Source of the DNA: a virus
Strand: one strand, 5' to 3'
IMG/VR virus record: IMGVR_UViG_3300021364_001337
Coordinates: 1-25,655 of that record
DNA: 25,655 bases
A program made the position numbers and the translations under genes. How positions within the stretch are numbered: the first letter of the stretch is position 1; each line of letters starts with the position of its first letter. This document shows positions 10,835 to 25,655 of the stretch, piece by piece. Below the pieces are notes generated by a model. That model was not told the DNA's origin. It saw only the letters and a list, made by a program, of their open reading frames with translations, and searched no databases.

Positions 10835-11455
10835 ATGGCGATCAATTACCCTCTGACGTTACCAACTCACACTGGCTTGATGAACGTGAACCTCCGAGCT
10901 GTGAATACGGTCGCGATTTCGACCTCTCCGTTTACATACAAGCAGCAAATTCATTCTCATTCTGGGCAGCGTTGGGAGGCTGAGATTTCATTGCCTCCCA
11001 TGCGTCGCGCAAATGCGGAAATATGGGTTTCGTTTTTGCTCTCTTTAAAAGGACCGAAAGGCACGTTTCTCCTGGGAGATCCGATCTGCAAAACAGCGCA
11101 GGGCAACCTGGGCGGAACGCCTCTTGTAAATGGAGCGGATCAAACTGGCGACACTCTCGTGATCGACGGCTGCTCGGCAAGCGTGACGGATTGGGTGAAG
11201 GCTGGCGATTACATTCAGCTCGGAAGCGGTTTGAGCTCGACATTGCACAAAGTTTTGCAAAACGCGGACAGCAATTCCTCCGGCGTTGTTTCCCTGGATA
11301 TATGGCCTTCGATACGGACTGCACCGGCGGACGACGCAGCGGTCACGACGTCAAACGCTGTCGGACTGTTTCGCCTGGCGTCAGGCATTCAAGATTGGAG
11401 CGTCAACAATATCGAGGTCTACGGAATAACTTTCGCCTGTGTTGAGGCTATCTAA
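10835..11455 (+). CDS. distal tail-like / minor tail protein
   Basis: This 206-aa protein lies directly after the tape measure, the usual place of the distal tail protein that nucleates tube assembly and holds the hub. It opens with YPLTLPTHTGLM (residues 4-15), then FTYKQQIHSHSGQRWEAEISLPPMRRANAEIW (residues 33-64; key features are the KQQIH strand, W and LPPM), then GPKGTFLLGDP and a C-terminal WSVNNIEVYGITFACVEAI-like strand. This pattern occurs in tail-tip proteins of several proteobacterial siphophages. The lack of enzyme motifs and the all-beta prediction suit a structural role. The start is immediately after the tape measure stop, and the end overlaps the next start as TAATG. Whether it equals gpM, gpL or Dit of other phages is inference. 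Confidence 0.72.
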   Translation: MAINYPLTLPTHTGLMNVNLRAVNTVAISTSPFTYKQQIHSHSGQRWEAEISLPPMRRANAEIWVSFLLSLKGPKGTFLLGDPICKTAQGNLGGTPLVNGADQTGDTLVIDGCSASVTDWVKAGDYIQLGSGLSSTLHKVLQNADSNSSGVVSLDIWPSIRTAPADDAAVTTSNAVGLFRLASGIQDWSVNNIEVYGITFACVEAI

Positions 11456-12045
11456 TGACCAGGTCAATCAGTGAAATTCTGAGCTCACTTTCTGACGACG
11501 AGATCAAACCAGTTTTTGCGCTCGATCTTATGTTCGACACAACGACGACGACGTTTGCTGGCGATACTGTGAACAGCGCTCCTTTGTATTTGCACACGGG
11601 GCTCGGCGACCTGACGATCGGTTCGACGACTTACACAGGGACCGGATCTCTTTTGCAGATCAGCGAGGTCAGTGAAGGATCGGACATTTCAGCTCGCGGG
11701 ATCTCGATCCAGCTGTCGGGTATTCCGATCGACATCCTGGCGGTCGCCTTAACACTGCCCTATCGCGGACGGGTGTTCCGTCTCAAAATGGGGATGCTCG
11801 ACGCAAATGACACGACGACGAGCCTGGCGCTGATCTTCACCGGATACATGGACAAGATGGATATTGCAGAGGGTCCAGAAACTAGCTCGATGACGCTCAC
11901 GGCTGAAAGCAAACTGATTAATCTTACTCGTCCACGGATCCGGCGATATACCTCGGAAAACCAGAAATCTCTTTATCCTGGCGATCTGGCTTTTGATTTC
12001 ATCAATGATCTGATCGACAAACCGTCGGCTTGGGGTCGCACGTAA
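11455..12045 (+). CDS. tail tip / baseplate hub-like protein (DUF2163-like)
   Basis: This 196-aa protein resembles the N-terminal part of DUF2163 proteins, which follow the distal tail gene in gene transfer agents and related siphophages. Visible elements are PVFALDLMFD (residues 19-28), LYLHTGLGDLTIGSTTYTG, GSLLQISEVSEGSDISARGI, then a GYMDKMDIAEG strand, and a C-terminal RPRIRRYTSENQKSLYP plus GDLAFDFINDL. The last block (R-RY--E-Q---PGD-AF-F---L) is the part I recognise most clearly. It is likely a hub component connecting the distal ring to the gpJ-like protein. The start overlaps the preceding stop (TAATG), and the stop likewise overlaps the next ATG. It has no cysteine-peptidase features. 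Confidence 0.72.
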   Translation: MTRSISEILSSLSDDEIKPVFALDLMFDTTTTTFAGDTVNSAPLYLHTGLGDLTIGSTTYTGTGSLLQISEVSEGSDISARGISIQLSGIPIDILAVALTLPYRGRVFRLKMGMLDANDTTTSLALIFTGYMDKMDIAEGPETSSMTLTAESKLINLTRPRIRRYTSENQKSLYPGDLAFDFINDLIDKPSAWGRT

Positions 12046-14657
12046 TGGCGATTGATTTCAAAAAACGACTAGAGGAATTTGTAAAGGAAACGGTCGTCCA
12101 GTACGTCGTCGCGGCTGGATTGATTTTATTGGGGGTTCCTCCTCAATTTGTTGGGACGATGTTCTGGGGCGGTGTTGGTGCGTCAGGGATGCGAGCGCTA
12201 AGACCCGAGGATCCTCCTCTCAACGCGGCTGACAATGGTTACATGATCAATGAGGTCGTCGACACTGGACCGGCAGCCGTCATATATGGCGAGACGCGCG
12301 TCGGTGGCGTGATCTTTTATCGAGAGACAACGGAGAGCAACAAAGTCCTGCACATGCTCATTGCTTTGGCGGGGCATGAGGTAAACGCAATTAATACCGT
12401 TTACGCGAATGACGAAACACTGACTATCGACGGCAGCGGCAACGTGACAGCTCCGTCACGTTATGTTGGAAAGTTAAAAATTTACAAACACCTGGGGACA
12501 AGCACCCAAAGCGCAGACGCAAACCTGGTCGCAGAGAGTACGAAATGGACGTCAAACCATTCTGCGAAAGGTATTGCTTATATCTATTGTCGCCTCGTTT
12601 ACGACGCGGACGCTTATCCGAACGGGGTTCCGACGTTCACAGCGATCGTTCAAGGCAAAAAGGTTTTTGATCCTCGTGATACAAATCACGACAGCTCTGA
12701 CAGCTCGACCTGGTCGTACTCAAACAATCCTGCGCTTTGTCTCAGGGATTATCTTGTTTATGCCGGTCTCGCAGATCACGACGAAATTGACGACACCTAT
12801 GTCGAGGACGCCGCTGACATTTGCGATCAGTCGGTCACAGTGAACGCAGGAACGCAGTCAAGATACACGACGAACGGATCTTTTACGCTCGACGCCTCTC
12901 CCGATAAAGTAATTAACAATCTTAGCCAGGCGATGGCTGGATTGACCTGGTACACCCAGGGAACCTGGGCGATGAAAGCTGGCAGCTACACGTCGCCGGT
13001 TTTCTCCGGAGCGACCGCAATCACAGCTGACGATTTTCGGTCTCCGATCCAGATTACGACAAAGAGCTCGAACCGAGACAGCTATAATAAAATCACCGGA
13101 ATATATCGCGGATCTGAAACAAACTATTTTAAGACCTCTTATCCTACGCTCGCGCCTTCAACGTTTTTGTCAGAGGATGCAAACGTCGAGAATGCGCTCG
13201 AGGTCAATCTGCCGTACACGGACACGTCGGCAATGGCTCAGAGGATTTCAAAAATCCTGCTCTATAAAAACCGGCAAGACGTCAGCTTTACGTCGACTTT
13301 CAGTTTGCGGTGTTTACAGCTTTCGATCGGAGACGTGGTCGAGGTCACTTATCCTCGGCTTGGCTGGGACGGAAAAACGTTTGAAGTCGTCGATTGGGGT
13401 TTTGCACTTAATTCGGAAATGGTGCTCGAGGTCCGGCTGTCTTTTGTCGAAACGAGCTCGTCGGTTTATGATTTTGCCCTGGCTGACGAGACAGTTTTCA
13501 TTCGTGACAACACAACGCTCCTCTCGCCCTTTGATGTTCCTGCCGTTTCGATCAGTCTCGCTCAGGAATATCGGGTTTTTAACGAGAGCATTACGAACGC
13601 TTTGATCGCGACAATTAGTTCGCCAAATCCTGAGCGTGTTGATTACGTCGAGGTCGAGTTTAGGAAAACAACGGACAGCGATTTCAGCATTTTGGGAACA
13701 GGTGATCTCGGAAAGTTTGAGATCCTGGACATCGAAACGCCTCTGGCAACCGATACAACTCAGATCACTTATGAGGTTAAAGCTCGAGCGATCAGCGCTC
13801 TCGGTGTCAAAGGCAGCTCGACAACGGTTTCAAAAATTGTTGCGGCGGACACGACGGGACCAAGCGCACCTGGATCGTTTGCGCGTCAGCTGTCAGGGGG
13901 CAGCGTTTTTTTGAATTGGACAGCCTCGCCGGACCTGGATCTTTCTTATTATAAAATCCACCACTCGAGCTCGACCTCCGCAACATTTACAGACGGCTCG
14001 CCTCAAGTGATTATTCAAAAGGTTGCGAGGCCAGCGACGTCGGTTTCATATCCGGCTCTTTCCGGCACTTTCTTCATTGAACCCTATGACAAGTCCGGCA
14101 ACGGTGGAGGCACATCGTCCGTCATTGTTCTCCCTGCTGAAATCCCACAGCTAAACATTACAACCACCGATACTGAAAACCCGTCGTTTGGTGGCACGAA
14201 AACAAACGTCGCGGTCGCGACCGGTCCAGATCCGGACGAGCTGCGTTTGTCCAGCTTTGCGACCAGCTCTAATTCGGGGACATATGAATTCACCGGTTAC
14301 ATTGACACCGGCACAGTCAGGACGGTCCGGATTTCATCGAACGTGACAGCGACAAGACACGCCTCAAATGCAGTGAGCGGCTCTGTGAATTGGGACGACA
14401 TCCCTGGCAACTGGGACACATGGCCCAGCAACTTTAACAACTGGACAGACGAGACAGCTGCGTTTGGTGACTTTAGTGTCGGGGTTTACGTCAAAGCGAC
14501 GAACGATGATCCGTCTGGATCTCCGACATATGGAAATTGGGTCGTCGCCGCTGGCGAAGTCGTCGGACGAGCCTTCAAATTCAAAGCAGAATTAGCGTCG
14601 ACAACGGCAAACATCTCGCCGAGCATATCCGTCCTTGAGGGCGTTGCGGAGTATTAA
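12045..14657 (+). CDS. tail tip hub / host-specificity protein (gpJ-like)
   Basis: This protein is about 870 aa. A TTG at 12030 is in frame, but ATG 12045 overlaps the previous stop (TAATG) and begins MAIDFKKRLEEF, so I use it. It has a hydrophobic N-terminal stretch (YVVAAGLILLGVPPQFVG, residues 24-41), a strand-rich gpJ-like region (AAVIYGETRVGGVIFY, then HMLIALAGHEV, near 85-120), a hub fold around 330-490 (SIGDVVEVTYPRLGWDGKTF), a fibronectin-III-like domain near 600-700 (GPSAPGSF, then VFLNWTASPDLDLSYYKIH) and a tryptophan-rich segment (VNWDDIPGNWDTWPSNFNNW, about 780-799). Such proteins form the central tail tip and contact the receptor or carry the fibres. The GTA-type NlpC peptidase expected just upstream is absent. 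Confidence 0.87.
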   Translation: MAIDFKKRLEEFVKETVVQYVVAAGLILLGVPPQFVGTMFWGGVGASGMRALRPEDPPLNAADNGYMINEVVDTGPAAVIYGETRVGGVIFYRETTESNKVLHMLIALAGHEVNAINTVYANDETLTIDGSGNVTAPSRYVGKLKIYKHLGTSTQSADANLVAESTKWTSNHSAKGIAYIYCRLVYDADAYPNGVPTFTAIVQGKKVFDPRDTNHDSSDSSTWSYSNNPALCLRDYLVYAGLADHDEIDDTYVEDAADICDQSVTVNAGTQSRYTTNGSFTLDASPDKVINNLSQAMAGLTWYTQGTWAMKAGSYTSPVFSGATAITADDFRSPIQITTKSSNRDSYNKITGIYRGSETNYFKTSYPTLAPSTFLSEDANVENALEVNLPYTDTSAMAQRISKILLYKNRQDVSFTSTFSLRCLQLSIGDVVEVTYPRLGWDGKTFEVVDWGFALNSEMVLEVRLSFVETSSSVYDFALADETVFIRDNTTLLSPFDVPAVSISLAQEYRVFNESITNALIATISSPNPERVDYVEVEFRKTTDSDFSILGTGDLGKFEILDIETPLATDTTQITYEVKARAISALGVKGSSTTVSKIVAADTTGPSAPGSFARQLSGGSVFLNWTASPDLDLSYYKIHHSSSTSATFTDGSPQVIIQKVARPATSVSYPALSGTFFIEPYDKSGNGGGTSSVIVLPAEIPQLNITTTDTENPSFGGTKTNVAVATGPDPDELRLSSFATSSNSGTYEFTGYIDTGTVRTVRISSNVTATRHASNAVSGSVNWDDIPGNWDTWPSNFNNWTDETAAFGDFSVGVYVKATNDDPSGSPTYGNWVVAAGEVVGRAFKFKAELASTTANISPSISVLEGVAEY

Positions 14658-14659
14658 GA

Positions 14660-15307
14660 ATGGCAACACACGATTATGAGATTGCAAACCAGACGGCGTC
14701 GAGCGCCAGGACGGATATAAATAACGTTCTGCAAGCGATCGCGACCAACAACAGCGGGACGTCAGCTCCCTCGACGACGTTTGCAAATCAATGGTGGGTC
14801 GATACACAGAACGATATTCTTTACATTCGGAACGAGGCAAACACAGCTTGGATTAAGCTCGGGCAGCTCAATCAGACGAGCAACACCTTTTCAGCTCAGA
14901 TCCCCGCTGGAATGGTCCAGGCATACGCAGGATCAACGGCTCCGACGGGTTGGCTGAAGTGCAATGGCGATGCTGTTTCGCGCACCACATATGCCACGTT
15001 GTTTGCAGCAATTGGGACAACATATGGATCGGGCGATGGCACATCTACATTTAACGTTCCTGAGCTGCGCGGTGAATTTGTCAGGGGTTGGGATGACAGT
15101 CGAGGCGTTGACAGCAGTCGATCTATCGGATCGTTCCAGGCTGACGAGTTTAAATCACACACTCACACTTTCGCAGGTAGTGTGGCTTCCGGCGGTTCAG
15201 GTTCATCAAATAGAGACGGGTCGCGGGCAACTAAGACAACAGACCCAACGGGAGGAAGTGAAACCAGACCGCGCAACATTGCGATGTTGTACTGTATAAA
15301 ATTCTAA
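14660..15307 (+). CDS. tail fibre protein with phage tail collar domain
   Basis: This 215-aa protein has two parts. Residues 1-77 (HDYEIANQTASSARTDINNV, then STTFANQWWVDTQND, and IRNEANTAWIKLG) form an attachment region common at the N-terminus of marine phage fibres. From residue 81 the collar domain (PF07484) begins: IPAGMVQAYAGSTAPTGWLK, CNGDAVSRTTYATLFAAIG, then FNVPELRGEFVRGWD, followed by SHTHTF and a C-terminal RNIAMLYCIKF, all diagnostic of this family. Histidines in the SHTHT segment often bind a metal ion in such fibres. It follows the gpJ-like gene by 2 nt. It is likely a short tail fibre or receptor-contacting tip. Confidence 0.9.
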   Translation: MATHDYEIANQTASSARTDINNVLQAIATNNSGTSAPSTTFANQWWVDTQNDILYIRNEANTAWIKLGQLNQTSNTFSAQIPAGMVQAYAGSTAPTGWLKCNGDAVSRTTYATLFAAIGTTYGSGDGTSTFNVPELRGEFVRGWDDSRGVDSSRSIGSFQADEFKSHTHTFAGSVASGGSGSSNRDGSRATKTTDPTGGSETRPRNIAMLYCIKF

Positions 15308-15789: not shown

Positions 15790-17454
15790 ATGCCAGTAGT
15801 CGGGAACAGAATTAAGGTCTCGAGCAGCTCCACAGGGACCGGCAACATTATCCTGGGAAGCGCCGACGCTGGTTTCCAAACCTTCGCGGACGGCGGAATT
15901 TCAAACAATGACGTCGTCCGTTACACAATTATCGAGGGCTCGGCTTTCGAGATCGCTACCGGAACATATTTGACGTCCGGTCCTACGTTGCAAAGGAGCT
16001 CGTCAAATCTACTCGAGAGCTCGACCGGTTCTTTGCTCGACCTGGGCGGATCGGCAACGGTGTTTGTCACGCTCGCAGATGTTGATGTCATGCAGACGGA
16101 AGGCGGCACTTTCACGGGTGATGTAATTTTTGACGGCAACACCGTTGACATCACCTTCGATCAATCCGCAAATGCTTTGTCTTTCGATGATGGAGCGAGA
16201 GCTTACTTTGGTAGTTCCTCAGACCTTACGATTTACCATGAGGGGGTTAGCTCTGAGACACGTCTTTGGAACGTAACTGGCGACCTTAATCTTACAAACT
16301 TCGCAAACGACAAAGACATTGTGATCGCCACAGATAACGGTTCTGGCGGCACTGCAAACTATTTTCTTGCAGATGGGTCAACGGGCGAAGCAAAATTATT
16401 CTTTTACGGATCGGAAAAACTCGCAACTAAGACGGGCGGTGTCGAAGTGCAAGGCACAGTCACAGCATCTACCATTGCAACTAGCTCTGGTGATTTTACG
16501 GCTGATATAGTTGGTGACATTATTCTTGACGCTGGTGGTGGTCAATTAATATTTAAAGATGATAACACCCAAATAGGACAAATATCAAATGTAGATAGTG
16601 GTAATTTGACGTTTCAATCAGATGTTTCAAATAAAGATATGGTTTTCAAAGGAAATGATAATGGAACAATTGTAACCGCTCTCACTCTTGATATGTCTGA
16701 TCGCGGCACGGCTTTCTTTAACCATGACATAGTCCTTGCGGATTATGGTATAGCGCGTTTTGGTGATGGCAATGACCTCCAAATTTTCCATAATTCATTT
16801 CACACATTCATAGATAATGCGACAGGTGATTTAACAATAAGAAATCGTGCAGATGACAAAGACGTAATCATTGAGTGTGACGATGGCACTGGTTTCAATA
16901 CAACCTATTTTCTTGCCGATGGCAGCACGGGTGAGGCGGTTCTACATCATTATGGAAGCCAGAGGCTGGCAACACAAACAGGCGGCGTTTCTGTAACGGG
17001 TGATATGCTTGCAAGCGGAAAAATTGGTTTAGACAGTACCGATTACATCACCTTTACAGACAACACTCAAATGGACGTTTACATAAACGGTTCAAATGAG
17101 TTTCGCTTTGAGGCTGATGGTGACTTCCACGCGGATGGAAACGTGATCGCTTATTCAACCACAATCGCATCCGATGCTTCCCTTAAAGAAAATATTCAAC
17201 CCGTGTTGGGCCTTCAGAGCGTCATGGCTCTAGATGGTGTCAGCTTCGATTGGAAACGTGACGGTAAAAAGAGCGCGGGTGTCATTGCACAGCAAGTCCA
17301 GAAAATCATGCCAGAGGCAGTTACAGAGGTGAAAGCTATGAACGGCTCAAAGCACCTTTCTGTTAATTATAATGCTCTGACGTCCGTTCTGATCGAAGCA
17401 ATCAAAGACTTAAAAACAGAGATTGAGGATTTGAAGAATGGCTCTCACAAGTAG
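15790..17454 (+). CDS. tail fibre/tailspike with C-terminal S74 intramolecular chaperone
   Basis: This 554-aa protein starts after a strong GGAGG. The C-terminal ~94 residues are a Peptidase_S74 endosialidase-type chaperone: SDASLKENI begins at S461, with K466 completing the Ser-Lys pair that performs self-cleavage in this family, followed by VSFDWKRDGKKSAGVIAQQV and a terminal coiled coil (LIEAIKDLKTEIEDLKN). It should trimerise the fibre and then be released. The middle has two related units about 184 residues apart: SDLTIYHEG with YFLADGSTGEAKLFFYGSEK, and NDLQIFHNS with YFLADGSTGEAVLHHYGSQR. The first ~130 residues use GC-rich, operon-like codons. From about 16190 onward the gene is clearly AT-rich, suggesting that a new distal part was acquired. 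Confidence 0.92.
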   Translation: MPVVGNRIKVSSSSTGTGNIILGSADAGFQTFADGGISNNDVVRYTIIEGSAFEIATGTYLTSGPTLQRSSSNLLESSTGSLLDLGGSATVFVTLADVDVMQTEGGTFTGDVIFDGNTVDITFDQSANALSFDDGARAYFGSSSDLTIYHEGVSSETRLWNVTGDLNLTNFANDKDIVIATDNGSGGTANYFLADGSTGEAKLFFYGSEKLATKTGGVEVQGTVTASTIATSSGDFTADIVGDIILDAGGGQLIFKDDNTQIGQISNVDSGNLTFQSDVSNKDMVFKGNDNGTIVTALTLDMSDRGTAFFNHDIVLADYGIARFGDGNDLQIFHNSFHTFIDNATGDLTIRNRADDKDVIIECDDGTGFNTTYFLADGSTGEAVLHHYGSQRLATQTGGVSVTGDMLASGKIGLDSTDYITFTDNTQMDVYINGSNEFRFEADGDFHADGNVIAYSTTIASDASLKENIQPVLGLQSVMALDGVSFDWKRDGKKSAGVIAQQVQKIMPEAVTEVKAMNGSKHLSVNYNALTSVLIEAIKDLKTEIEDLKNGSHK

Positions 17455-18157
17455 CGGTCAGATTGATCTTAATGCCATGCACGTCGAAGCTGGCGGCACT
17501 ACTGGTACTGAATGCACTTTAAATGACGCAGATATTCGGGACATGATTTCTAAAGCCTCTGGCGCACAGATGGGCTTCAATGAATGGTATGGTGCTTCCT
17601 CAGTGTCATACACAATCTACACACTGACAGGCACATCTTATACCGCAGGACAGGGAGAGAGTACATATAAAGGGAACAGGCTAGCTGAAACCCCGCCTTA
17701 TATACAGTTTCGTGGGAATAGCACCTCAGTTTATATGCAAGCCTCCGATGACTTTTATGACTACAATGAAAATTATACCGACGATTATTATTCAAACGGC
17801 TATGATCCTTCACTTGATGTTAATTGGATAATGAGAGACGGGGAAGATGATAGTAGCGGTGGAGAGAATGCTTTCCCTTCATACCCCAGCATAACGACAT
17901 CGCATTTTCGCACGAGCACAAGTTCGAACGGTATAGATGAAGATGAAGGTTCACATACAACAGGAAGTTACATTGAGGCTTATTATAACGGCACTTTGAT
18001 GGATACTTTTGATGTTTTAACGACAGGTGCAGGAACCCCCGCAACTTTAGTCACACAAAACTGGACAACAGCGCCGAGTGATCCAGAGAGCCTAAACATC
18101 ATTGGAAGCAATACGACTGCGAGCCTTTGGCAGTTAAAAGTTTATGCAGCAAATTAA
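17438..18157 (+). CDS. putative tail adhesin (fibre-tip protein)
   Basis: This 239-aa protein overlaps the S74 fibre gene by 17 nt. The first ~50 residues (SSGQIDLNAMHVEAGGTTGT, then LNDADIRDMISKASGAQMGF and NEWYGA) match a module I recognise at the N-terminus of adhesin-like tail proteins in marine phages. The rest is rich in Tyr, Asp, Ser, Gly and Asn (for example DDFYDYNENYTDDYYSNGYD), with no recognised enzyme motif, consistent with a variable, acidic receptor-binding domain. Low GC marks it as part of the AT-rich cassette with the fibre's distal part and the next gene. Receptor binding is inferred from module and position, not shown. Confidence 0.72.
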   Translation: MALTSSGQIDLNAMHVEAGGTTGTECTLNDADIRDMISKASGAQMGFNEWYGASSVSYTIYTLTGTSYTAGQGESTYKGNRLAETPPYIQFRGNSTSVYMQASDDFYDYNENYTDDYYSNGYDPSLDVNWIMRDGEDDSSGGENAFPSYPSITTSHFRTSTSSNGIDEDEGSHTTGSYIEAYYNGTLMDTFDVLTTGAGTPATLVTQNWTTAPSDPESLNIIGSNTTASLWQLKVYAAN

Positions 18158-18170
18158 AAGGTAGTGGATC

Positions 18171-18689
18171 ATGTCTTACACTTTCACAAGATCAGATACC
18201 TTTGAAGAAGCTGACTTTGATGCAGCCTATGAGGGCGACAAAGCAGCCGTCGAAGAATTGCTGTTCGAAAAAATTCCAGAAGAAATTGTAAGCATAATAG
18301 GGTCAGCAAAGAGTTTCTTTCGTCAAACATTTATTCTCAACAAAGAAAATAATAACGGTTTTTTTGTTAAAATAACTAAAACTAGGGAAGATGGGTCGCA
18401 GTCTCTTGTTGGTATAAGTGTTTCCTACCTTGACGGTGACAATAACTTTTGCACTCCGATTGGCATTGCGACAGCTAATTCTGAATTTATAGCAATGGAC
18501 GCTCAATGGTATTATTCCTATATAGATTTCGCAAAACGACAGCACCCAATATGCAAAACATTTGTTTTTGAAAGTCATCCAAGTGCGAGATTTTGGAAAT
18601 TTCTTAAACGCATTGGTCCCGATCTCAATTATCCTGTCACTTATTCTGAGGAAGGTGACAGCGCGACGATGGCCATTGATTTGAGGTAA
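18171..18689 (+). CDS. hypothetical protein in adhesin cassette, possibly GNAT-like
   Basis: This 172-aa protein has AAAGG upstream of the ATG. It has mixed alpha/beta character: an acidic N-terminal helix region (TFEEADFDAAYEGDKAAVEE), a strand pair (FFVKITKTREDGSQSLVGIS), a central strand, and a C-terminal TFVFESHPSARFWKFLKRIG (about residues 129-149). That last block resembles the end of GNAT acetyltransferases, where a final helix precedes a loop and strand. The acetyl-CoA-binding loop (Q/R-x-x-G-x-G/A) is not evident, so catalysis is doubtful. Genes between adhesins and fibres can be fibre-assembly chaperones or fibre-modifying enzymes, and either would fit. Base composition is AT-rich like its upstream neighbour and unlike the downstream repeat gene. 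Confidence 0.65.
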   Translation: MSYTFTRSDTFEEADFDAAYEGDKAAVEELLFEKIPEEIVSIIGSAKSFFRQTFILNKENNNGFFVKITKTREDGSQSLVGISVSYLDGDNNFCTPIGIATANSEFIAMDAQWYYSYIDFAKRQHPICKTFVFESHPSARFWKFLKRIGPDLNYPVTYSEEGDSATMAIDLR

Positions 18690-18693
18690 GTAA

Positions 18694-20865
18694 ATGCTCG
18701 GTTTTACCCCTCTTGCGTCCGGTCCACTAGCAGACAGCGGATCCGTAAACTATGAGGTCACAGCTGACAATATTGTCACCGGCGCTCCGGTCGTCAGCTC
18801 GGCGAGCGTCACGCAAAATCACAGTCTAGGAGCCTCGAGCATCGTCACCGGCGCTCCGGTCGTCAGCTCGGCGAGCGTCACGCAAAATCACAGTCTAGGA
18901 GCCTCGAGCATCGTCACCGGCTCTCCGACATTGGGCTCGCCGGATCTTGACCAGGTTCACACTCTAACAGCCTCGAGCATCGTCACCGGCTCTCCGACAC
19001 TTGGCTCGCCGGATCTCGACCAGGTTCACAGTTTAACAGCCTCGAGCATCGTCACCGGCTCTCCGACACTTGGCTCGCCGGATCTTGACCAGGTTCACAC
19101 TCTAACAGCCTCGAGCATCGTCACCGGTTCCCCTGCCCTGGGTTCTCCAGATCTTGACCAGGTTCATTCTCTAAGTGCGAACAATATCGTCACGGGCGCT
19201 CCTGTTGTCTCTGACGCGAACGTCGCAGAGGAAGAAACGTTCGCGATCGCGGACCTGGTCACAGGAGCTCCGACACTTGGATCGCCCGAGCTCGATCAAA
19301 CGCACAATCTGACAGCCTCCTCGATTGTGACGGGCGCTCCCGTCGTCAGCTCGGCAAACGTCACCATTTCAATCGCGATCTCAGCTGACAACATCGTCAC
19401 CGGTGCTCCGACATTGGGCTCGCCAGATCTTGACCAGGATCACAGCTTTACAGCGGACGACATTGTCACCGGTGCTCCTGAGCTCGGTTCTCCTATCCTT
19501 TCCAGTCCGTTGGCACTCACTGCAAATTCAATCACCGCTGGCGCTCCTGTCCTGGGATCTCCAGAGCTCGACCAGGATCACAGTCTCACAGCCGACGGAA
19601 TTGTCACAGGATCTCCCGAGCTTGGGCAGCCAGAGCTCGATCAAAGTCACACTCTGAGCGCTGACAACCTGGTCAGCGGATCCCCTGCCCTTGGCTCTCC
19701 AGATCTCGACCAAGAGCACGAGCTGACGGCGAACGCGATTGTCACGGACGCTCCGACATTGGGCTCGCCAGAGCTCGACCAGGAGCACAGCATTGCAGCC
19801 GACAACCTGGTCAGCGGATTTCCTGTCCTGGGCTCTCCAGATCTTGACCAGGAGCACGAGCTCACAGCTGACGGCATTGTCTCTGGATCGCCTGATCTGG
19901 GGCAGCCGGAGCTCGATCAAAGTCACACTCTGACCGCTGACGATATTGTGACAGGATCTCCTGCCCTGGGCTCTCCAGATCTCGACCAGGTTCACGCTCT
20001 CACTGCAAACAATATTGTCACGGGAGCTCCGGTCGTCTCTGACGCGAATGTTGCAGAGGAAGAAACGTTCGCGATCGCTGACCTAATCACGGGAGCTCCT
20101 GAGCTTGGTTCTCCTGGACTTAACCAGGAACATGACCTGGCAGCCGACGACGTCGTCACAGGCTCGCCTGTGGTGTCACAAATTGACGTCCTGCAAAATC
20201 ACGAGCTCGGAGCTGACAGCATCGTCACAGGTGCTCCGATTGTCCCTGCGGCCTCAGTGTTTGAGGAGGAGACAGTCACAGCCGACGACCTGGTCACAGG
20301 ATCTCCCGTTCTTGGCTCTCCTGGACTTAACCAGGAACACGAGCTGGCAGCCGACAGCATTGTCACCGGCTCGCCCGAATTGTTCAGTCCAAGCGTCAAC
20401 CAGGATCACAGCTTTACAGCCGACAGCATTGTCGGCGGATCTCCGGTCCTGGGATCTCCAGGGTTCGATCAAAGTCACACTCTAAGCGCTGACGATATTG
20501 TCACCGGTCCTCCGGACGTCGGATCCGCTCCGGTGTTTGAGGAAGAAACTTTTGCGGCGGATAACATCGTCACAGGAGCTCCGGAGCTTGGTTCTCCTCA
20601 ACTTAACCAGGAACATGACCTGGCAGCCGACAGCATCGTCACCGGCTCGCCTGTTCTTGAAAGTCCTCTGCTAAATGGATCTGTCGGTCGAATTGTCTCG
20701 ATTACGTCCAGCTCCCAAAACACCGTCGAGATTGTATCTGACAATTCAGCGACACTCTCGCTATCGTCAAATAATCACGTCCTCTTGGCGTCTGATAATT
20801 CGGCAACGCCGGTCAGCTCGAGGCGCACTGTCACCCTAGACGAAAACGAAAATAAGGCTGCATGA
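18694..20865 (+). CDS. 28 x 23-residue tandem-repeat protein (probable fibre or baseplate shaft)
   Basis: This 723-aa protein divides exactly into a 21-residue start, 28 repeats of 23 residues without any insertion or deletion (644 residues), and a 58-residue end. The repeat consensus is LTADSIVTGSPxLGSPxLDQxH plus one residue. Invariant or nearly invariant positions are A3, I/L6, V/I7, G9, P11 and a hydrophobic pattern suggesting one strand pair per turn, as in a beta-solenoid or fibrous repeat. There is no enzyme motif or signal peptide. The C-terminal tail contains a smaller internal echo (VSDNSATLSLSSNN and ASDNSATPVSS). Its stop overlaps the start of a BppU-like gene, so a structural role at the tail tip is likely. 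Similar short-repeat proteins exist in some proteobacterial phages; their function is unknown to me. Confidence 0.85.
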   Translation: MLGFTPLASGPLADSGSVNYEVTADNIVTGAPVVSSASVTQNHSLGASSIVTGAPVVSSASVTQNHSLGASSIVTGSPTLGSPDLDQVHTLTASSIVTGSPTLGSPDLDQVHSLTASSIVTGSPTLGSPDLDQVHTLTASSIVTGSPALGSPDLDQVHSLSANNIVTGAPVVSDANVAEEETFAIADLVTGAPTLGSPELDQTHNLTASSIVTGAPVVSSANVTISIAISADNIVTGAPTLGSPDLDQDHSFTADDIVTGAPELGSPILSSPLALTANSITAGAPVLGSPELDQDHSLTADGIVTGSPELGQPELDQSHTLSADNLVSGSPALGSPDLDQEHELTANAIVTDAPTLGSPELDQEHSIAADNLVSGFPVLGSPDLDQEHELTADGIVSGSPDLGQPELDQSHTLTADDIVTGSPALGSPDLDQVHALTANNIVTGAPVVSDANVAEEETFAIADLITGAPELGSPGLNQEHDLAADDVVTGSPVVSQIDVLQNHELGADSIVTGAPIVPAASVFEEETVTADDLVTGSPVLGSPGLNQEHELAADSIVTGSPELFSPSVNQDHSFTADSIVGGSPVLGSPGFDQSHTLSADDIVTGPPDVGSAPVFEEETFAADNIVTGAPELGSPQLNQEHDLAADSIVTGSPVLESPLLNGSVGRIVSITSSSQNTVEIVSDNSATLSLSSNNHVLLASDNSATPVSSRRTVTLDENENKAA
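18757..20688 (+). repeat. 28 tandem 69-bp coding repeats
   Basis: Repeats are 69 bp (23 codons) and stay in register throughout. Units 1-2 share 78 identical nt at an offset of 69 (18775-18852 and 18844-18921). Units 3-5 are also nearly identical. Units 7-8 (from 19171) recur as units 19-20 (from 19999), with a 26-nt identical core, 828 bp apart. Elsewhere the units diverge, often synonymously, including alternative EEET-type ends in units 7, 19, 22 and 26 in place of the QxH end. Confidence 0.93.
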
Positions 20866-21188
20866 TGACTTTTAAAATTAAACAAAACGACACAAGTCCG
20901 ATTTTGGCGGCAACCCTCAAAGATGCTGACGGGACAGCCGTCAATTTAAACGGAGCCTCAATTCGTTTTCACATGCGCAAAGTGGGGAAAGCGACGGCAG
21001 CCGTCGACGCAGCGGCGACCATAACAGGCGCACTCACAGGCCAGGTTCAATATGCCTGGAGCGCATCTGACACAGCAACAATCGGAACGTACCACGGCGA
21101 ATTTGAAGTCACATATTCTGACAGCTCAATCGAAACGTTTCCAAATTCCGGCTTTATAGCGGTTGAGATTACGGACGACCTGGCATGA
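20862..21188 (+). CDS. BppU-like baseplate/tail protein
   Basis: This 108-aa protein has the pattern of the BppU N-terminal domain family (DUF2479-like): FKIKQNDTSPILAATLKDAD (residues 4-23), GTAVNLNGASIRFHMRK, a VQYAWSASDTATIGTYHGEF block and IETFPNSGFIAVEITDDL. In lactococcal phages BppU anchors receptor-binding proteins to the baseplate. Many proteobacterial phages carry such a domain alone. The start lies on the stop of the repeat gene (ATGATGA; ATG 20862 or 20865), indicating translational coupling, which ties the repeat protein to the tail tip. It ends overlapping the next gene by ATGA. It may be the attachment ring for one of the upstream fibres. Confidence 0.8.
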   Translation: MMTFKIKQNDTSPILAATLKDADGTAVNLNGASIRFHMRKVGKATAAVDAAATITGALTGQVQYAWSASDTATIGTYHGEFEVTYSDSSIETFPNSGFIAVEITDDLA

Positions 21189-22273: not shown

Positions 22274-22486
22274 ATGGCTGACTTGACGATGGAAAGAATT
22301 TTGAAGTGGAAGCTCGTTCCACGGCTCATGATGTTTGTGATGACCTTGGTTTATATCAGGTGCATAGAATTCGGACTTAGCCAGGAAAATTTATCAACTC
22401 AACATAGCGCACTGATTTCAGTCGTCACAGGCGCAATGACAGGCAGTTTCGCCGTGTTCCTATCAGGTGAGAGGGAAACAAAATGA
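22274..22486 (+). CDS. small membrane protein, holin-like (two TM segments)
   Basis: This 70-aa protein has two predicted membrane helices: residues about 14-32 (LVPRLMMFVMTLVYIRCIEF) and 46-63 (ALISVVTGAMTGSFAVFLSG). The SVVTGAMTGSFAVFLSGE segment resembles a short membrane protein found before the lysis genes of many marine phages. Length, two-helix topology and charged C-terminus suit a class II holin or an antiholin for the larger holin encoded right after it, which it overlaps by ATGA (22483-22486). The start is 1 nt after the previous stop, with GAGG about 8 nt upstream. Experimental function is unknown to me. Confidence 0.72.
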   Translation: MADLTMERILKWKLVPRLMMFVMTLVYIRCIEFGLSQENLSTQHSALISVVTGAMTGSFAVFLSGERETK

Positions 22487-22878
22487 TCGACAAACTAATC
22501 GCACCGGTTTCCAACATCCTGGATAAATTTATTGAGGATAAGGATCAAAAGGCAGCCCTGGCACACGAGATCGCAACCATGTCGTCTCGTCACGCGCAGG
22601 AGCTTGCCCTCGCTCAAATTTCAGTCAACCAAGCAGAAGCAGCAAGCGGAAGTATTTTTAAAGGTGGCTGGCGTCCTTTCATTGGTTGGGTCTGTGGGTT
22701 TGCTTTTTTCTATCACTTTGTTGGGCAGCCTCTTGCCATTTTTGTGATCGCGATGCTTGGAATTTTTGTCCCCCCTTTGCCGGAATTTGACATGTCGACT
22801 TTGTTGACGGTGCTCGCCGGTATGCTCGGGATCGGCGGTCTCAGGACATACGAGAAGCAAAAAGGAGTAGCTCGTTGA
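22483..22878 (+). CDS. holin, GTA-type 3TM family
   Basis: This 131-aa protein matches the GTA_holin_3TM pattern (PF11351). It has an amphipathic N-terminal region (KLIAPVSNILDKFIEDKDQK), then NQAEAASGSIFKGGWRPFIG (about 47-67), whose E-A-S--F--GWRPFIGW block is the family hallmark. Hydrophobic segments follow (WVCGFAFFYHFVGQPLAIFV; then MLGIFVPPLPEF; then LLTVLAGMLGIGGLRTYEK). In gene transfer agents this holin permits release of particles by endolysin. The same pairing is seen here, with the muramidase gene about 85 nt downstream. It starts on the stop of the small membrane protein (ATGA), and its own stop overlaps a TTG that opens a tiny ORF. Confidence 0.9.
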   Translation: MIDKLIAPVSNILDKFIEDKDQKAALAHEIATMSSRHAQELALAQISVNQAEAASGSIFKGGWRPFIGWVCGFAFFYHFVGQPLAIFVIAMLGIFVPPLPEFDMSTLLTVLAGMLGIGGLRTYEKQKGVAR

Positions 22879-22979
22879 TTGATTGGCATTCAGCGCTTTT
22901 GACAGCTGTCACTTTGAACACTGTCGCGAACATTTACCGGCTTTATCTGGAGGTCAGAAAAAATGAAAAAAAACTTTAA
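22875..22979 (+). CDS. 34-codon TTG-start ORF between holin and endolysin
   Basis: The frame reads TTG ATT GAT TGG and so on to TAA at 22977-22979, giving 34 residues: (M)IDWHSALLTAVTLNTVAN, then IYRLYLEVRKNEKKL. AGGAG at 22863-22867 lies 7 nt before the TTG, which is ideal. The TTG overlaps the holin stop as TTGA, the same coupling used by its neighbours with ATGA. The peptide has an amphipathic or weakly hydrophobic helix followed by a basic end, and its 3' end overlaps the endolysin start. It explains why a strong ribosome site sits far from the endolysin ATG, which has its own GGAGG. The function is unknown. It could be a lysis-associated micropeptide or only a coupling device. Confidence 0.5.
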   Translation: MIDWHSALLTAVTLNTVANIYRLYLEVRKNEKKL

Positions 22980-23475
22980 AGGCTGTCTAAAAATGCTGCT
23001 CGTTCATGAGGGCGGTTTCGTAAACCATCCAGAGGATCCAGGCGGAGCGACAAACCTGGGCGTCACAAAAGCAACGCTCCAGGCATATCTTGGACGACAT
23101 GTCTCAATGCAGGAAATGAAAGATCTGACGCCGGATGACGTCGAGCCAATATATCGAAAGCGCTACGCTGACGCGGTGCAATTTGACGAGCTGCCGAGCG
23201 GCGTTGATTGGGCTGTCCTGGATTGGGCTGTCAATTCCGGTCCTGGGCGAGCTGCAAAAGCATTGCAAAAATGTGTTGGCGCGACGCCGGACGGAGCAAT
23301 CGGTCCGAAAACTTTGGCAGCTGTAAAAAAAGCAGACCCTCAAAAAATTATCGAGGATCTGCACAAAGATCGTCAGGTTTTTTATGAGGGTCTCAAAGCG
23401 TTTAAAACGTTTGGAAAAGGTTGGACCAGGCGCAACACCGAAACCCTCGAGCAAGCGCTGCACCTGGCGTCCTAA
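22963..23475 (+). CDS. endolysin, glycoside hydrolase family 108 muramidase
   Basis: This 170-aa protein matches GH108 (PF05838) followed by a PG_binding_3 domain (PF09374). The catalytic glutamate is E16 in LLVHEGGF, followed by HPEDPGGATNLGVTKATLQA (residues 23-42), the family signature, and IYRKRYADAVQFDELPSGVD with NSGPGRAAKALQK further on. ATPDGAIGPKTLAAV (about 107-121) is the peptidoglycan-binding part. It cleaves cell-wall glycan to release virions. No signal peptide is seen, so export depends on the holin upstream. The ribosome site GGAGG lies 9 nt before the ATG. It is the last gene of the late operon and stops 2 bp from the stop of a gene on the other strand. Confidence 0.95.
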   Translation: MKKNFKGCLKMLLVHEGGFVNHPEDPGGATNLGVTKATLQAYLGRHVSMQEMKDLTPDDVEPIYRKRYADAVQFDELPSGVDWAVLDWAVNSGPGRAAKALQKCVGATPDGAIGPKTLAAVKKADPQKIIEDLHKDRQVFYEGLKAFKTFGKGWTRRNTETLEQALHLAS

Positions 23476-23477
23476 AA

Positions 23478-23711
23478 TTACTCGGCAGCCGTTGCCGCTC
23501 GAGCTTCGTCAATATGCTTTTTTGCAAGCGAAAGCTCGGCTCGAGCAATTGATAAGTTACGACGCAAGTTTTCAATTTCGAGCGCAGCTTTTCTAATCTC
23601 AAAGCCGATTTTGTAACATTTTTTATGATCTAAAGACAGGAATTGTCCTTCCATAACTGTCATGAGATCGGCGGCGGTATCATACATATAAACGATCTTT
23701 AGAGAGGACAT
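23478..23711 (-). CDS. small hypothetical protein, early cluster
   Basis: This protein is about 77 aa on the minus strand. The frame opens at GTG 23714, but ATG 23711 has AAGGAGG with ideal 7-nt spacing and overlaps the stop of the upstream gene, so I prefer it. The N-terminal part is MSSLKIVYMYDTAADLMTVM. The C-terminal half is a charged heptad-like helix (FEIRKAALEIENLRRNLSIA and beyond) suggesting a coiled coil. No family is recognised. It is the last gene of the minus-strand cluster and converges on the endolysin gene with 2 bp between the stop codons. A regulatory or host-takeover role is possible but nothing in the sequence shows it. Confidence 0.7.
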   Translation of the reverse strand: MSSLKIVYMYDTAADLMTVMEGQFLSLDHKKCYKIGFEIRKAALEIENLRRNLSIARAELSLAKKHIDEARAATAAE

Positions 23712-23929
23712 CACGCATCCTCCTTGATCACCGGCTGCAACCAGGTCATTCGATGCTCTTTAATATAACCCAGCTCGACGAGTTTCCTGACCATGACGTT
23801 TGCAGGAGTTTTTGTCCGGTTGGTCCCGTCGGCGACCTCTTGGCTCGTCGGAAAACGTTCCTTCTCAAGATAAAACTTACAGATAAAATCGTATGTCTGG
23901 CGCTGGCGATCAGTTAATGGAGGACGCAT
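23711..23929 (-). CDS. small winged-helix regulator resembling the LexA DNA-binding domain
   Basis: This 72-aa protein begins MRPPLTDRQRQTYDFICKFY, followed by ERFPTSQEVADGTNRTKTPA and VRKLVELGYIKEHRMTWLQP. The pattern LT-RQ---Y-FI--F-----FPT--E-A--------A---VRKL-E-GYI is that of the LexA N-terminal winged helix. The family normally continues with a linker and an S24 autoprotease domain. This protein ends right after the wing, so it cannot self-cleave. It may bind DNA constitutively, possibly competing with a full-length LexA or repressor. AAGGAGG lies 7 nt before the ATG. It overlaps the upstream gene by 16 nt, and its stop overlaps the start of the next. Confidence 0.8.
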   Translation of the reverse strand: MRPPLTDRQRQTYDFICKFYLEKERFPTSQEVADGTNRTKTPANVMVRKLVELGYIKEHRMTWLQPVIKEDA

Positions 23930-24177
23930 GTCTCGCCCTCCTTTTTAGTGAGCTGGATCTCGTCACCGGTCAAAACGATTTTAAATTTTTTGTTTTCGTA
24001 TTCGTCCAGGTGAAGCAATCTCAGAACCTCGATCGCTGATTTTTCAGCCTCCTGGAACGCCTCGAGCAAAAACTTTGCAGCGGTCAAAAATTCCTGGCGT
24101 GTGTTTTCAGCAAAATTCATATCGTGAATTAAGCTGTCGAGATCTTTTGCGATCTGACTGTCAAGTTTCTCCCTCAT
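23914..24177 (-). CDS. small hypothetical protein, early cluster
   Basis: This 87-aa protein starts at ATG 24177, which overlaps the upstream stop (ATGA) and has AGGAG 10 nt before it. An in-frame start at 24198 exists but lies within the upstream gene. The sequence is helical and acidic (REKLDSQIAKDLDSLIHDMN, then FLTAAKFLLEAFQEAEKSAI), with a short C-terminal strand pair (KKFKIVLTGDEIQLTKKEG). No family, metal site or membrane segment is recognised. The gene sits between a small membrane protein and the LexA-like regulator in a tightly packed operon. Function is unknown. Confidence 0.7.
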   Translation of the reverse strand: MREKLDSQIAKDLDSLIHDMNFAENTRQEFLTAAKFLLEAFQEAEKSAIEVLRLLHLDEYENKKFKIVLTGDEIQLTKKEGETCVLH

Positions 24178-24401
24178 TGCAGCACCGCTCCTGCCCAAAG
24201 AGCAACAAACAAAATCACAAAAAGAGAGGCTGCTCCGAGCAGCTCAAAGATAAACGCAAAAACCAGTGTGATCTGATTTTTCTGTTTTTCCTGTTCTAAC
24301 AGTTTTGACTGTACTGATGTCAGAGGGATGCTGTCACGACTAACGATATACTTATTATGCGTGTCCCTTGGCTCTGTTTTTAGGTAAGTTTCTGTATTCA
24401 T
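24174..24401 (-). CDS. small single-span membrane protein
   Basis: This 75-aa protein starts at ATG 24401, preceded by AAGGAG at 4-nt spacing. The longer frame from 24443 lacks such a site. It has a hydrophilic N-terminal half (NTETYLKTEPRDTHNKYIVS) and a hydrophobic C-terminal half (ITLVFAFIFELLGAASLFVI, then LFVALWAGAVLQ), long enough for one span or a hairpin. No family is recognised. Early phage membrane proteins of this size often act in superinfection exclusion or modulate the host envelope. That is a guess from context. It is coupled by ATGA to the next gene. Confidence 0.68.
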   Translation of the reverse strand: MNTETYLKTEPRDTHNKYIVSRDSIPLTSVQSKLLEQEKQKNQITLVFAFIFELLGAASLFVILFVALWAGAVLQ

Positions 24402-24464
24402 TGGGCTCCTTGCCTCCTGCCATTTTTGCGCCTTCTCAGGCATTAGATTGCGCTCTCCCAGATC

Positions 24465-24884
24465 TTACTCCGGACGAGCTCCGGTCCGGTGCTTCCGCAT
24501 GTTCGGACCAGGTTCAAATTGTTCATCCAGGTCGTCCCTGGCTTGAACATGATCGACGCCGTTCATATTCGTCATATATGTTCGACCGTCCATATACTTG
24601 GACATTGCTGCCCCGCGCTCCCTGGGATCGTGTGGCGTCAGCCGACTAGCGTCCCAATTTAGCCTTTGGATCTGCCATTGTATCAGGCTGACCTTTTCGT
24701 GATTAAGCATCGTCTCCATTTTTCCGATCTCCTCGATGCTCTTTCCGTATTCAATTAGCAACCGAGCAATTTTTTCGATGTGCTCGTGATGCCAACAAGG
24801 GAGATCAACACGACGTTTAAAGCGCAAACCGTTCTCGATCATTTTGAACGCGGTCGGGTTCCAGGCGTTCTTTTTGCGTCTCAT
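24465..24884 (-). CDS. hypothetical protein, first strong-SD gene of the minus cluster
   Basis: This 139-aa protein starts at ATG 24884, which has a near-perfect AAAGGAGG at 6-nt spacing. The frame is open further upstream to 24923 without such a site. It is basic at the N-terminus (RRKKNAWNPTAFKMIENGLR, then FKRRVDLPCWHHEHIEKIAR). The CWHHEH cluster could bind a metal but has no partner motif that I can see. The centre is helical (LIEYGKSIEEIGKMETMLNH), and the C-terminal ~50 residues are polar and proline-rich. No family is recognised. It follows a 66-bp intergenic region carrying a palindrome and AT-rich promoter-like sequence, so it may be independently regulated. Confidence 0.72.
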   Translation of the reverse strand: MRRKKNAWNPTAFKMIENGLRFKRRVDLPCWHHEHIEKIARLLIEYGKSIEEIGKMETMLNHEKVSLIQWQIQRLNWDASRLTPHDPRERGAAMSKYMDGRTYMTNMNGVDHVQARDDLDEQFEPGPNMRKHRTGARPE

Positions 24885-24950
24885 TGTCGTCCTCCTTTCG
24901 TACCATTCATTAATAAATACCAAAATCTTATCCGTAAATGTAAACCAACT
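24885..24950 (-). promoter_or_regulatory. intergenic regulatory region (possible promoter for the downstream early genes)
   Basis: This is an AT-rich gap between the wHTH regulator gene and the 139-aa gene, in an otherwise gapless operon. On the minus strand TTTACA (24944-24939) resembles a -35 element, with AT-rich -10-like hexamers (TATTTA, TTATTA) about 19-22 nt further on, which is wider than ideal. The palindrome listed next overlaps the -35-like element. The promoter call is tentative. Confidence 0.35.
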
Positions 24951-24955
24951 TTACA
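24939..24955. promoter_or_regulatory. operator-like palindrome TGTAAA-N5-TTTACA
   Basis: A perfect 6-bp inverted repeat separated by CCAAC overlaps the stop of the wHTH regulator gene and the -35-like hexamer for the downstream gene. The half-site spacing (11 bp centre to centre) suits a dimeric helix-turn-helix protein. The stem is AT-rich and lacks a following T run, so it is a poor terminator. It is likely a binding site for one of the two regulators encoded nearby (inference). Confidence 0.4.
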
Positions 24956-25397
24956 CTTTTTCGCGCTCTTTAATGACAGACAAAAGCCAATCGGTATCGC
25001 TTAAACCTATTGAAAACCAAGCATCATGCGTCCAAGACGCAGTTTCTTCCATGGCTTCAGCTAAAACGTCAGAAGCCCTATAAAACTTGCGGTTTCCTTC
25101 GCTGCAGCACTGCACGACCCACCCTGCTGGGATTGTCTCATTTATTATATTATGAACAGCAGTCCGGCTAATGTGCAGCGCGTCTGCAATATCACTTGGA
25201 CTGTAAAGCTGGTTTGCACTCCGAGCCAAATACATAAGGCGCGAAAAAGCCATTTTCTCAGGGGTGGACTGAAAATATTTGTTCATTTTATTCTCCGATA
25301 ACCAGCCACCTTGCTCATATCGCGCTGTGTAAAGTTGTATTTCGTACTGACAAAGCTTGTACGTCAGTTCTTTAAGAGTATCTTTGTAAGTGATCAT
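24951..25397 (-). CDS. winged helix-turn-helix transcriptional regulator (MarR/IclR-like)
   Basis: This 148-aa protein starts at ATG 25397, which overlaps the stop of the upstream recombinase-like gene (ATGA). The frame is open to 25454, but that part runs inside the upstream gene. The N-terminal helical region (ITYKDTLKELTYKLCQYEIQ) is followed by a HTH at about residues 64-95: LYSPSDIADALHISRTAVHN, then IINETIPAGWVVQC. It ends with a wing-like GNRKFYR segment and a C-terminal aromatic-rich helix region (WTHDAWFSIGLSDTDWLL). It most likely binds DNA as a dimer and controls phage early genes, and the palindrome just downstream is a candidate site. The ribosome site is weak, so translation may depend on coupling. 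Confidence 0.78.
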   Translation of the reverse strand: MITYKDTLKELTYKLCQYEIQLYTARYEQGGWLSENKMNKYFQSTPEKMAFSRLMYLARSANQLYSPSDIADALHISRTAVHNIINETIPAGWVVQCCSEGNRKFYRASDVLAEAMEETASWTHDAWFSIGLSDTDWLLSVIKEREKV

Positions 25398-25655
25398 TTT
25401 GATTTCTCGCTTTTCCATTTGTTGACGATCCGGCTGACGCCGTACTGCGTCCACAGTTTGCCGCGATAAGTCCGCACGCCTTTTCTGTTTAGAGCAGCGG
25501 CAATTTTTCCCTGGTTGACACCTCGAGCGAGCAGCGGCTCGATTATCGCAAGTACCTCTCTCGCATGAGCTTCAATGCGTTTTGATTTTTCCGCGTTCCC
25601 CGCCTGGCTCAGAGCATCCTGCCCTATGGTGGCTCCGAGCTTACTGATCTTTCGA
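25394..25655 (-). CDS. C-terminal part of a recombinase-like DNA-binding protein (cut by window edge)
   Basis: The minus-strand frame entering at 25654 stays open for 86 codons to TGA at 25396-25394, which overlaps the start of the wHTH gene. The readable part is RKISKLGATIGQDALSQAGN, then AREVLAIIEPLLARGVNQGK, IAAALNRKGVRTYRGKLWTQ, YGVSRIVNKWKSEKSK. The pattern GVNQGKIAAALNRKGVRTYRGKLW followed by V--I (shown broken above) resembles the helix-turn-helix 'recombinase' segment of serine recombinases, where IA--LN--G--T--G--W contacts DNA. The catalytic N-terminal domain, if any, lies beyond the window. It could be a resolvase/invertase or a stand-alone HTH protein with this domain. Confidence 0.65.
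   Translation of the reverse strand, partial: RKISKLGATIGQDALSQAGNAEKSKRIEAHAREVLAIIEPLLARGVNQGKIAAALNRKGVRTYRGKLWTQYGVSRIVNKWKSEKSK

Follow-up and report, generated by a model that had tools for sequence, protein, structure and literature searches.

The 723-aa product of a tandem-repeat gene in a siphophage fragment from IMG/VR (25.7 kb; the whole stretch of 25,655 nucleotides is called the window below) is on balance probably a modular spacer or adaptor of the adhesion apparatus of a marine phage, with its C-terminus directed toward the tail and its N-terminus toward an exchangeable adhesin cassette. At the level of sequence, comparison with relatives revealed a two-gene unit, a match between C-terminal tail type, partner gene and tail machine, length variation by whole repeat units and DNA mosaicism that ends at a short N-terminal motif. 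An adaptor is the simplest explanation of this pattern: the C-terminal tail would fit the tail machine of the recipient, the repeats would be an adjustable spacer and the N-terminal motif would travel with the cassette. Stand-alone collar proteins and repeat fibres are each known separately; as far as our searches go, a coupled unit with an exchangeable repeat class, a tail-matched C-terminus and a fixed N-terminal exchange point has not been described. The literature search returned neither a description of such phage repeat proteins nor virion proteomics or EM of a BppU-linked member, and the available parts of the OANV2 and CRP-6 papers contain no virion proteomics.

The gene order of the window runs from TerS, TerL, portal, protease, HK97-type capsid, head-completion and tail-completion proteins through the major tail protein, tape measure, Dit, a tail protein, a J-like tail-tip protein and collar-domain and S74 fibres to the repeat gene, a BppU_N-like gene, a holin and a GH108 endolysin (Table 1). 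The initial annotation had placed the repeat gene behind adhesins and beside a BppU-like gene; this arrangement was confirmed, with the tail-tip J protein, the collar fibre and the S74 fibre upstream and the BppU_N-like gene downstream. A profile search detected no chaperone domain in the 172-aa ORF directly upstream, unlike in several relatives, which is a point against the adaptor. ORFs with MarR/HTH matches at the right end of the window (23711-25454, minus strand) are probably regulatory.

Table 1. Features of the window around the repeat gene (positions in the window).
Feature	Position	Strand	Remarks
Distal tail protein (Dit)	10835..11455	+	phrog_1302
Central tail fibre / J-like tail-tip protein	12030..14657	+	
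Tail collar-domain fibre	14660..15307	+	PF07484
Tail fibre with S74 intramolecular chaperone	15790..17454	+	PF13884
phrog_26746-type protein, function unknown	17438..18157	+	
172-aa ORF adjoining the repeat gene on its 5' side	18171..18689	+	no confident family
Repeat (spacer) protein, 723 aa	18694..20865	+	ATG start; pI ~4.05; Cys and Trp absent
N-terminal motif MLGFTPLASGPLADSG (family form MLGFSPLASAPLADDG)	18694..18741	+	shared upstream DNA ends here in relatives
28 x 23-residue repeat array, 69-bp units	18757..20688	+	
58-aa Asn-rich C-terminal tail, RIVSI...NTVEIV...NNHVLL...NENKAA	20689..20862	+	tail type predicts BppU-like neighbour in relatives
BppU_N / p132-like collar protein, 108 aa	20862..21188	+	PF10651 and fold match
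Lysis genes: GTA_holin_3TM holin (22483-22878), GH108 endolysin (22963-23475)	22483..23475	+	

Read in register, the repeat protein consists of 21 + 28 x 23 + 58 residues without any indel; the copy number of 28 is taken from a metagenomic assembly, and long reads could change it. Self-identity reached 0.41-0.50 at lags of 23, 46, 69, 92, 115 and 138 residues, whereas the maximum over all lags in 500 shuffled sequences was 0.134, and the architecture that the initial annotation had read from the ORF thus held both in register and by autocorrelation. The most conserved repeat columns are P11 (28/28 units), G9 (27/28), V7 and A3 (26/28 each) and I6 (22/28), followed by S15 (22/28), Q20 and H22 (21/28 each) and P16 (20/28); units 7, 19, 22 and 26 carry an EEET variant instead of Q.H. 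Tandem Repeats Finder detected the array only as 69- and 138-bp arrays. DNA identity between adjacent units is 35-70% for most of them and rises to 71-96% only among units 1-6. The strict phasing is therefore not merely the result of recent duplication: by this comparison the array is old, with a more recent expansion near its 5' end, where units 1-6 look recent. Between units, pN/pS averaged ~0.54, with pS near saturation. Strict 23-residue phasing is a property of the window copy; a relative (L006) has 22-residue units. Searches with the 723-aa protein gave no match in Pfam and no relative in the PDB, and in PHROGs two weak unnamed families with no stretch passing alone and no named PHROG.

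The partner gene directly downstream starts, in its family form, at the second ATG (20865), which creates a TGATG overlap with the repeat gene. This 1-base overlap is the commonest junction between the two genes (37 of 63 loci). The window partner matched PF10651 (BppU_N) with 24.1 bits at a cut-off of 23.1, and 63 of 65 members of its family matched this profile at E<=1e-3. AlphaFold2 modelled the 108-aa protein with a pLDDT of 93.4 and a pTM of 0.85. Searched as a profile against the sequences of the PDB, the BppU-like family yielded nothing, but fold comparison of the model with Foldseek matched 8hqz, 7qg9, 6v8i, 9m8o, 4v96 and 3uh8 at TMq 0.60-0.78. These comprise the T5-type tail tip (8hqz, 7qg9), the 80alpha baseplate (6v8i), the NF5 baseplate (9m8o) and TP901-1 BppU (4v96, TMq 0.69-0.76; 3uh8, 0.72). 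By its predicted fold the partner is a stand-alone Ig-like domain of the baseplate or side-fibre collar type. It has 107-108 aa in the window and in nearly all relatives and is not the N-terminus of a longer fibre or RBP carrier. Apparent BppU fusions in four loci (L041, L076, L078, L048) were rejected as out-of-frame reading or reading beyond the usual start; the N-terminal extensions in L041, L076 and L078 are another gene read out of frame. The closest partner homologue in genome contigs (77%) lies behind a repeat protein in a contig titled Rhodobacteraceae AG-319-F15. The scan of genome contigs gave only four loci, three of them titled Rhodobacteraceae or Rhodobacterales and one titled as a euryarchaeal MAG.

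Direct searches detected few relatives of the repeat protein; most were found through the neighbouring gene and then through the N-terminal motif. The family is common in environmental viral contigs, where one exact form of the motif occurs in at least 120 stretches and the partner at 212 loci, whereas among 50,697 phage records only two or three revealed it (CRP-6, OANV2 and EBPR siphovirus 2), with repeat proteins that are unnamed or misnamed. A repeat protein lies directly upstream of the BppU-like gene in 79 of 80 IMG/VR loci fetched with the partner, so that the coupling noted initially for the window is a family-wide rule, with a partner fold of the collar or side-fibre type. Most repeat proteins upstream of the partner start with M(L/F)GFSPLASAPLADDG, and those linked to BppU typically end in an Asn-rich stretch (..RRxVxVxxxSNNVxxV..PNxVxV..NEAA). 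Between these ends at least three repeat classes occur, with units of 23 residues as in the window, of 22 (PAADVTLAALAPSIS) or of 20 (SFALAGQDAFKAISE). In two loci (L014:4154-6004 and L053:4160-6004) a Gly_rich_2 domain (PF21722), above the cut-off only in L014, lies between the start motif and the 23-residue repeats. The repeat protein is linked to fibre genes: the fibre-assembly chaperone PF16778 is encoded upstream in four relatives (L006, L032, L035, L009), and S74 and collar fibres in the window.

Several other observations concern the surroundings of the repeat genes. The 22-residue PAAD repeats of L031 (5078-6001) match the Pfam family Mucin-like (PF16058, 7e-10), some of whose members may accordingly be spacer repeats of phages. 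A gene of the 2OG-Fe(II) oxygenase type (PF13640) lies directly 5' of the repeat gene in L049 (3923-4519), with similar ORFs in L120 and L158; its product might hydroxylate repeat residues. Two further kinds of conserved, enzyme-like proteins are encoded upstream of repeat genes, a 183-aa 'LEIGASNFDTLLPLAKAGW' protein (L043:2303-2854 and eight similar loci) and 'YQISLHGSAYDARGK' proteins of ~600 aa (L052:2247-4082 and 31 similar ORFs). In the archaeal tailed virus HRTV-25 (L086; MZ334521.1, gp7-gp8) the gene of a BppU_N protein overlaps and directly follows that of a large laminin-G adhesin; this pair adjoins the terminase and shows the same pairing logic with another adhesin.

A second set of loci, chosen by the N-terminal motif alone, gave 49 non-redundant testable proteins, whose C-terminal tails divide by their neighbours. 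Tails with a Trp motif (WTEQ and similar) had a BppU-like neighbour in 0/25 cases and a 'PTVGxSxDTWG' fibre gene downstream in 18/25, whereas the remaining tails had a BppU-like neighbour in 19/24 and a fibre gene of this WG type in 0/24. A tail HMM trained on the BppU-selected set, with shared tails removed, predicted the BppU neighbour with an AUC of 0.92. The tail machines differ correspondingly: Dit was found in 18 of 26 BppU-linked records (CRP-6 included) and in none of 22 records of the mainly Trp-tailed set, whereas the virion protein phrog_3287, which the podovirus OANV2 has, was found in 15 of these 22 and in none of the 26. The set of 22 includes a few records whose tails are of neither type (L103, L127), the counts carry no correction for relatedness, the Fisher tests take related phages to be independent, and many of the records are fragmentary. 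Among BppU-linked records >30 kb, nearly all encode Dit and a J-like protein, the exception being that of L033. Judged by gene content, siphophages with Dit combine Asn-rich tails with the collar protein, and podovirus-type phages combine Trp tails with a different fibre gene. The correlation between tail and partner could stem from physical linkage of adjacent sequence instead of binding, which makes it a weak argument for polarity. Both tail types usually end in -AA (NEAA, TEQEAA, SDAA), for example at 20857-20862 in the window and in L100 and L104.

The opposite end of the gene marks a mosaic boundary. The podovirus-type locus L105, whose upstream genes include collagen-like and adhesin-like ORFs, shares two upstream blocks of 0.8 and 1.4 kb with the BppU-linked locus L171 at 94-96% identity. 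This identity ends 62 nt into the repeat gene, just past MLGFSPLASAPLGDDGVVSA, and beyond it repeat class, tail and downstream genes are completely different. Four podovirus-type loci, all with phrog_3287 (L105, L094, L154, L095), have upstream DNA 84-96% identical to that of BppU-linked loci, and the identity stops 38-69 nt inside the repeat gene; for one BppU-linked counterpart (L040) the record encodes Dit and a J-like protein. Altogether 62 locus pairs, including some contig-end truncations and one recurring locus, have an upstream identity >=80% without further homology within the repeat gene, and in 50 of the 62 the junction lies 30-69 nt into it. Unrelated loci differ greatly in the synonymous codons that they use for the motif, with only some enriched (e.g. 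GGG at codon 16), so that the motif is constrained mainly as a peptide. A DNA-level recombination site within it was considered and rejected, the codons being too variable between unrelated loci. In L121 (334-411) a stop codon follows 26 codons after the start motif; this copy may be broken, or it may have recombined recently at that same junction.

The initial annotation had proposed a rod-like tail-tip component, possibly a spacer of variable length, with for example one solenoid turn or strand pair per repeat. Close relatives with matching ends differ in length by 23 or 46 aa, or by 60 aa where the units have 20 residues; length within the family thus changes mostly by whole units, which supports a variable-length spacer. 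The predicted shape fared less well. AlphaFold2 modelling of nine units and the tail gave a mean pLDDT of 55 and a pTM of 0.40 and no interpretable fold; this low-confidence model has periodic strands, one long and one short per unit, and found no meaningful match with Foldseek. Confidently predicted disorder, which would have spoken against the proposal, was not obtained either. The result fits a simple monomeric solenoid poorly and would be expected for an intertwined oligomer, yet it is not evidence for one.

We therefore envisage the adaptor as follows. The Asn-rich C-terminal tail would dock directly onto a collar ring of the coupled BppU_N/p132-like protein (20865-21188), and this ring would sit around the Dit end of the siphophage tail in the virion. 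The 23-residue repeats would form a beta-rich shaft, trimeric or solenoid, whose length is set by copy number. The N-terminal motif would face the host-recognition side as part of a cassette of adhesin, fibre-assembly chaperone and start of the repeat gene, and this cassette would move between phages of different tail type. Rather more tentatively, and at less than even confidence, the repeat gene could be a universal coupler, in which the motif of 16-20 codons serves as a fixed junction for swapping cassettes (adhesin, chaperone and connector peptide) between long- and short-tailed phages, while the spacer and the C-terminal dock stay with the recipient's machine.

The orientation of the protein is what separates the adaptor from a conventional side tail fibre. 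Such a fibre would be attached to the virion through its N-terminal motif, with the repeats as shaft and the Asn-rich C-terminus at the far end, and gene order alone would link it to the BppU-like collar component. Most phage fibres have N-terminal-proximal polarity, and a short conserved motif could well be an anchor peptide. The long tail fibre (LTF) of T5 is likewise thought to enter the p132 collar by its ~50 N-terminal residues (PMC10038345). However, the motif is common to Dit-containing and podovirus-type phages, whereas the C-terminal tail changes with the machine, and the upstream cassette DNA runs into the motif and not into the tail; we regard this arrangement as a serious but unlikely alternative. 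Neck structures, too, can be anchored by rings of the BppU_N type, and the pair may therefore sit at the head-tail joint instead of the tail tip: 80alpha fibres possess rings of such N-terminal domains, a ring of this kind has been modelled for the neck passage structures of TP901-1 (PMC10747895), the CRP-6 pair lies between tail fibre and capsid genes, and homologues in HRTV-25 and HGTV-1 adjoin terminase and portal genes. A head or neck fibre is nevertheless improbable given that the window pair comes after the tail-tip and fibre genes, that Dit and J-like proteins accompany it in nearly all the longer BppU-linked records and that fibre-assembly chaperones precede it in several loci. Slightly more doubtful still is a non-virion product, be it a repeat protein that is secreted or bound to the cell or the product of a moron gene inserted before the lysis cassette; the position just before the lysis genes and the poor AlphaFold2 model of the repeats would suit it, but the fixed pairing with a collar-fold protein, the dependence on tail type, the exchange with adhesin genes and, in L014 and L053, the Gly_rich_2 domain behind the motif argue against it. 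An artefact of low complexity or misassembly is hardly credible: metagenomic assemblies of repeat arrays are prone to wrong copy numbers, and the number 28 could still change, but as regards the existence of the array this explanation is already refuted, as 30-65% of DNA positions differ between most neighbouring units and the isolate CRP-6 and many independent contigs have the same array type with the same neighbour.

Which bacteria a phage can bind is decided by its side fibres and by what anchors them. Should the protein be an adaptor, this would account for the ability of host-recognition genes to move between phages whose tail machines are unrelated: recombination takes place at a fixed peptide, the spacer can be adjusted in length and the dock is specific to the tail. 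The contacts of each protein end with the collar and the determinants of spacer length then become open to experiment. A universal coupler would amount to a natural plug-and-socket for host recognition across morphotypes. Beyond the initial annotation, the comparison adds the interchange of repeat classes, the correspondence of C-terminal tails to the tail machine and the exchange boundary at the start motif.

Among known systems, Roseobacter phage CRP-6 (MK613348) is similar in that gp57 and gp56 comprise 23-residue repeats, with the start motif MFGTSPFA, followed by a BppU_N-like protein 50% identical to that of the window, in a phage with Dit and a J-like protein. Its repeat protein, annotated as hypothetical only, differs in length (422 vs 723 aa) and C-terminal tail, and the gene cluster lies, unlike in the window, between portal and capsid genes. 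Octadecabacter Antarctic DB virus 2 (OANV2) shares the same kind of tandem repeats in gp11 ('LTADNVESASETTAPEIGQTHV'), followed by a Trp-rich tail and a WG-type fibre protein; in contrast to the window it is a podovirus with another N-terminal domain, in which BppU-like and Dit proteins were not found. This gp11 (MW805364.1, L005:7065-8591) is annotated as 'ribonuclease E', a name unsupported by its sequence of tandem repeats. TP901-1 BppU (PF10651) and the N-termini of 80alpha FibU/FibL share domain family and fold with the window partner; there, however, the domain is the N-terminus of a longer fibre- or RBP-bearing protein, whereas in the window it is a stand-alone protein of 108 aa coupled to a repeat protein. 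The T5 protein p132, likewise Ig-like and stand-alone, resembles BppU-N by structure and forms a dodecameric collar carrying three side fibres (PMC10038345). The window partner, whose model matches 7qg9/8hqz chains, is likened to this fibre-anchoring collar by predicted fold only, a sequence relation not being detected; and whereas the L-shaped fibre pb1 of T5 is thought to enter its collar N-terminus first, the polarity proposed for the window protein is the reverse.
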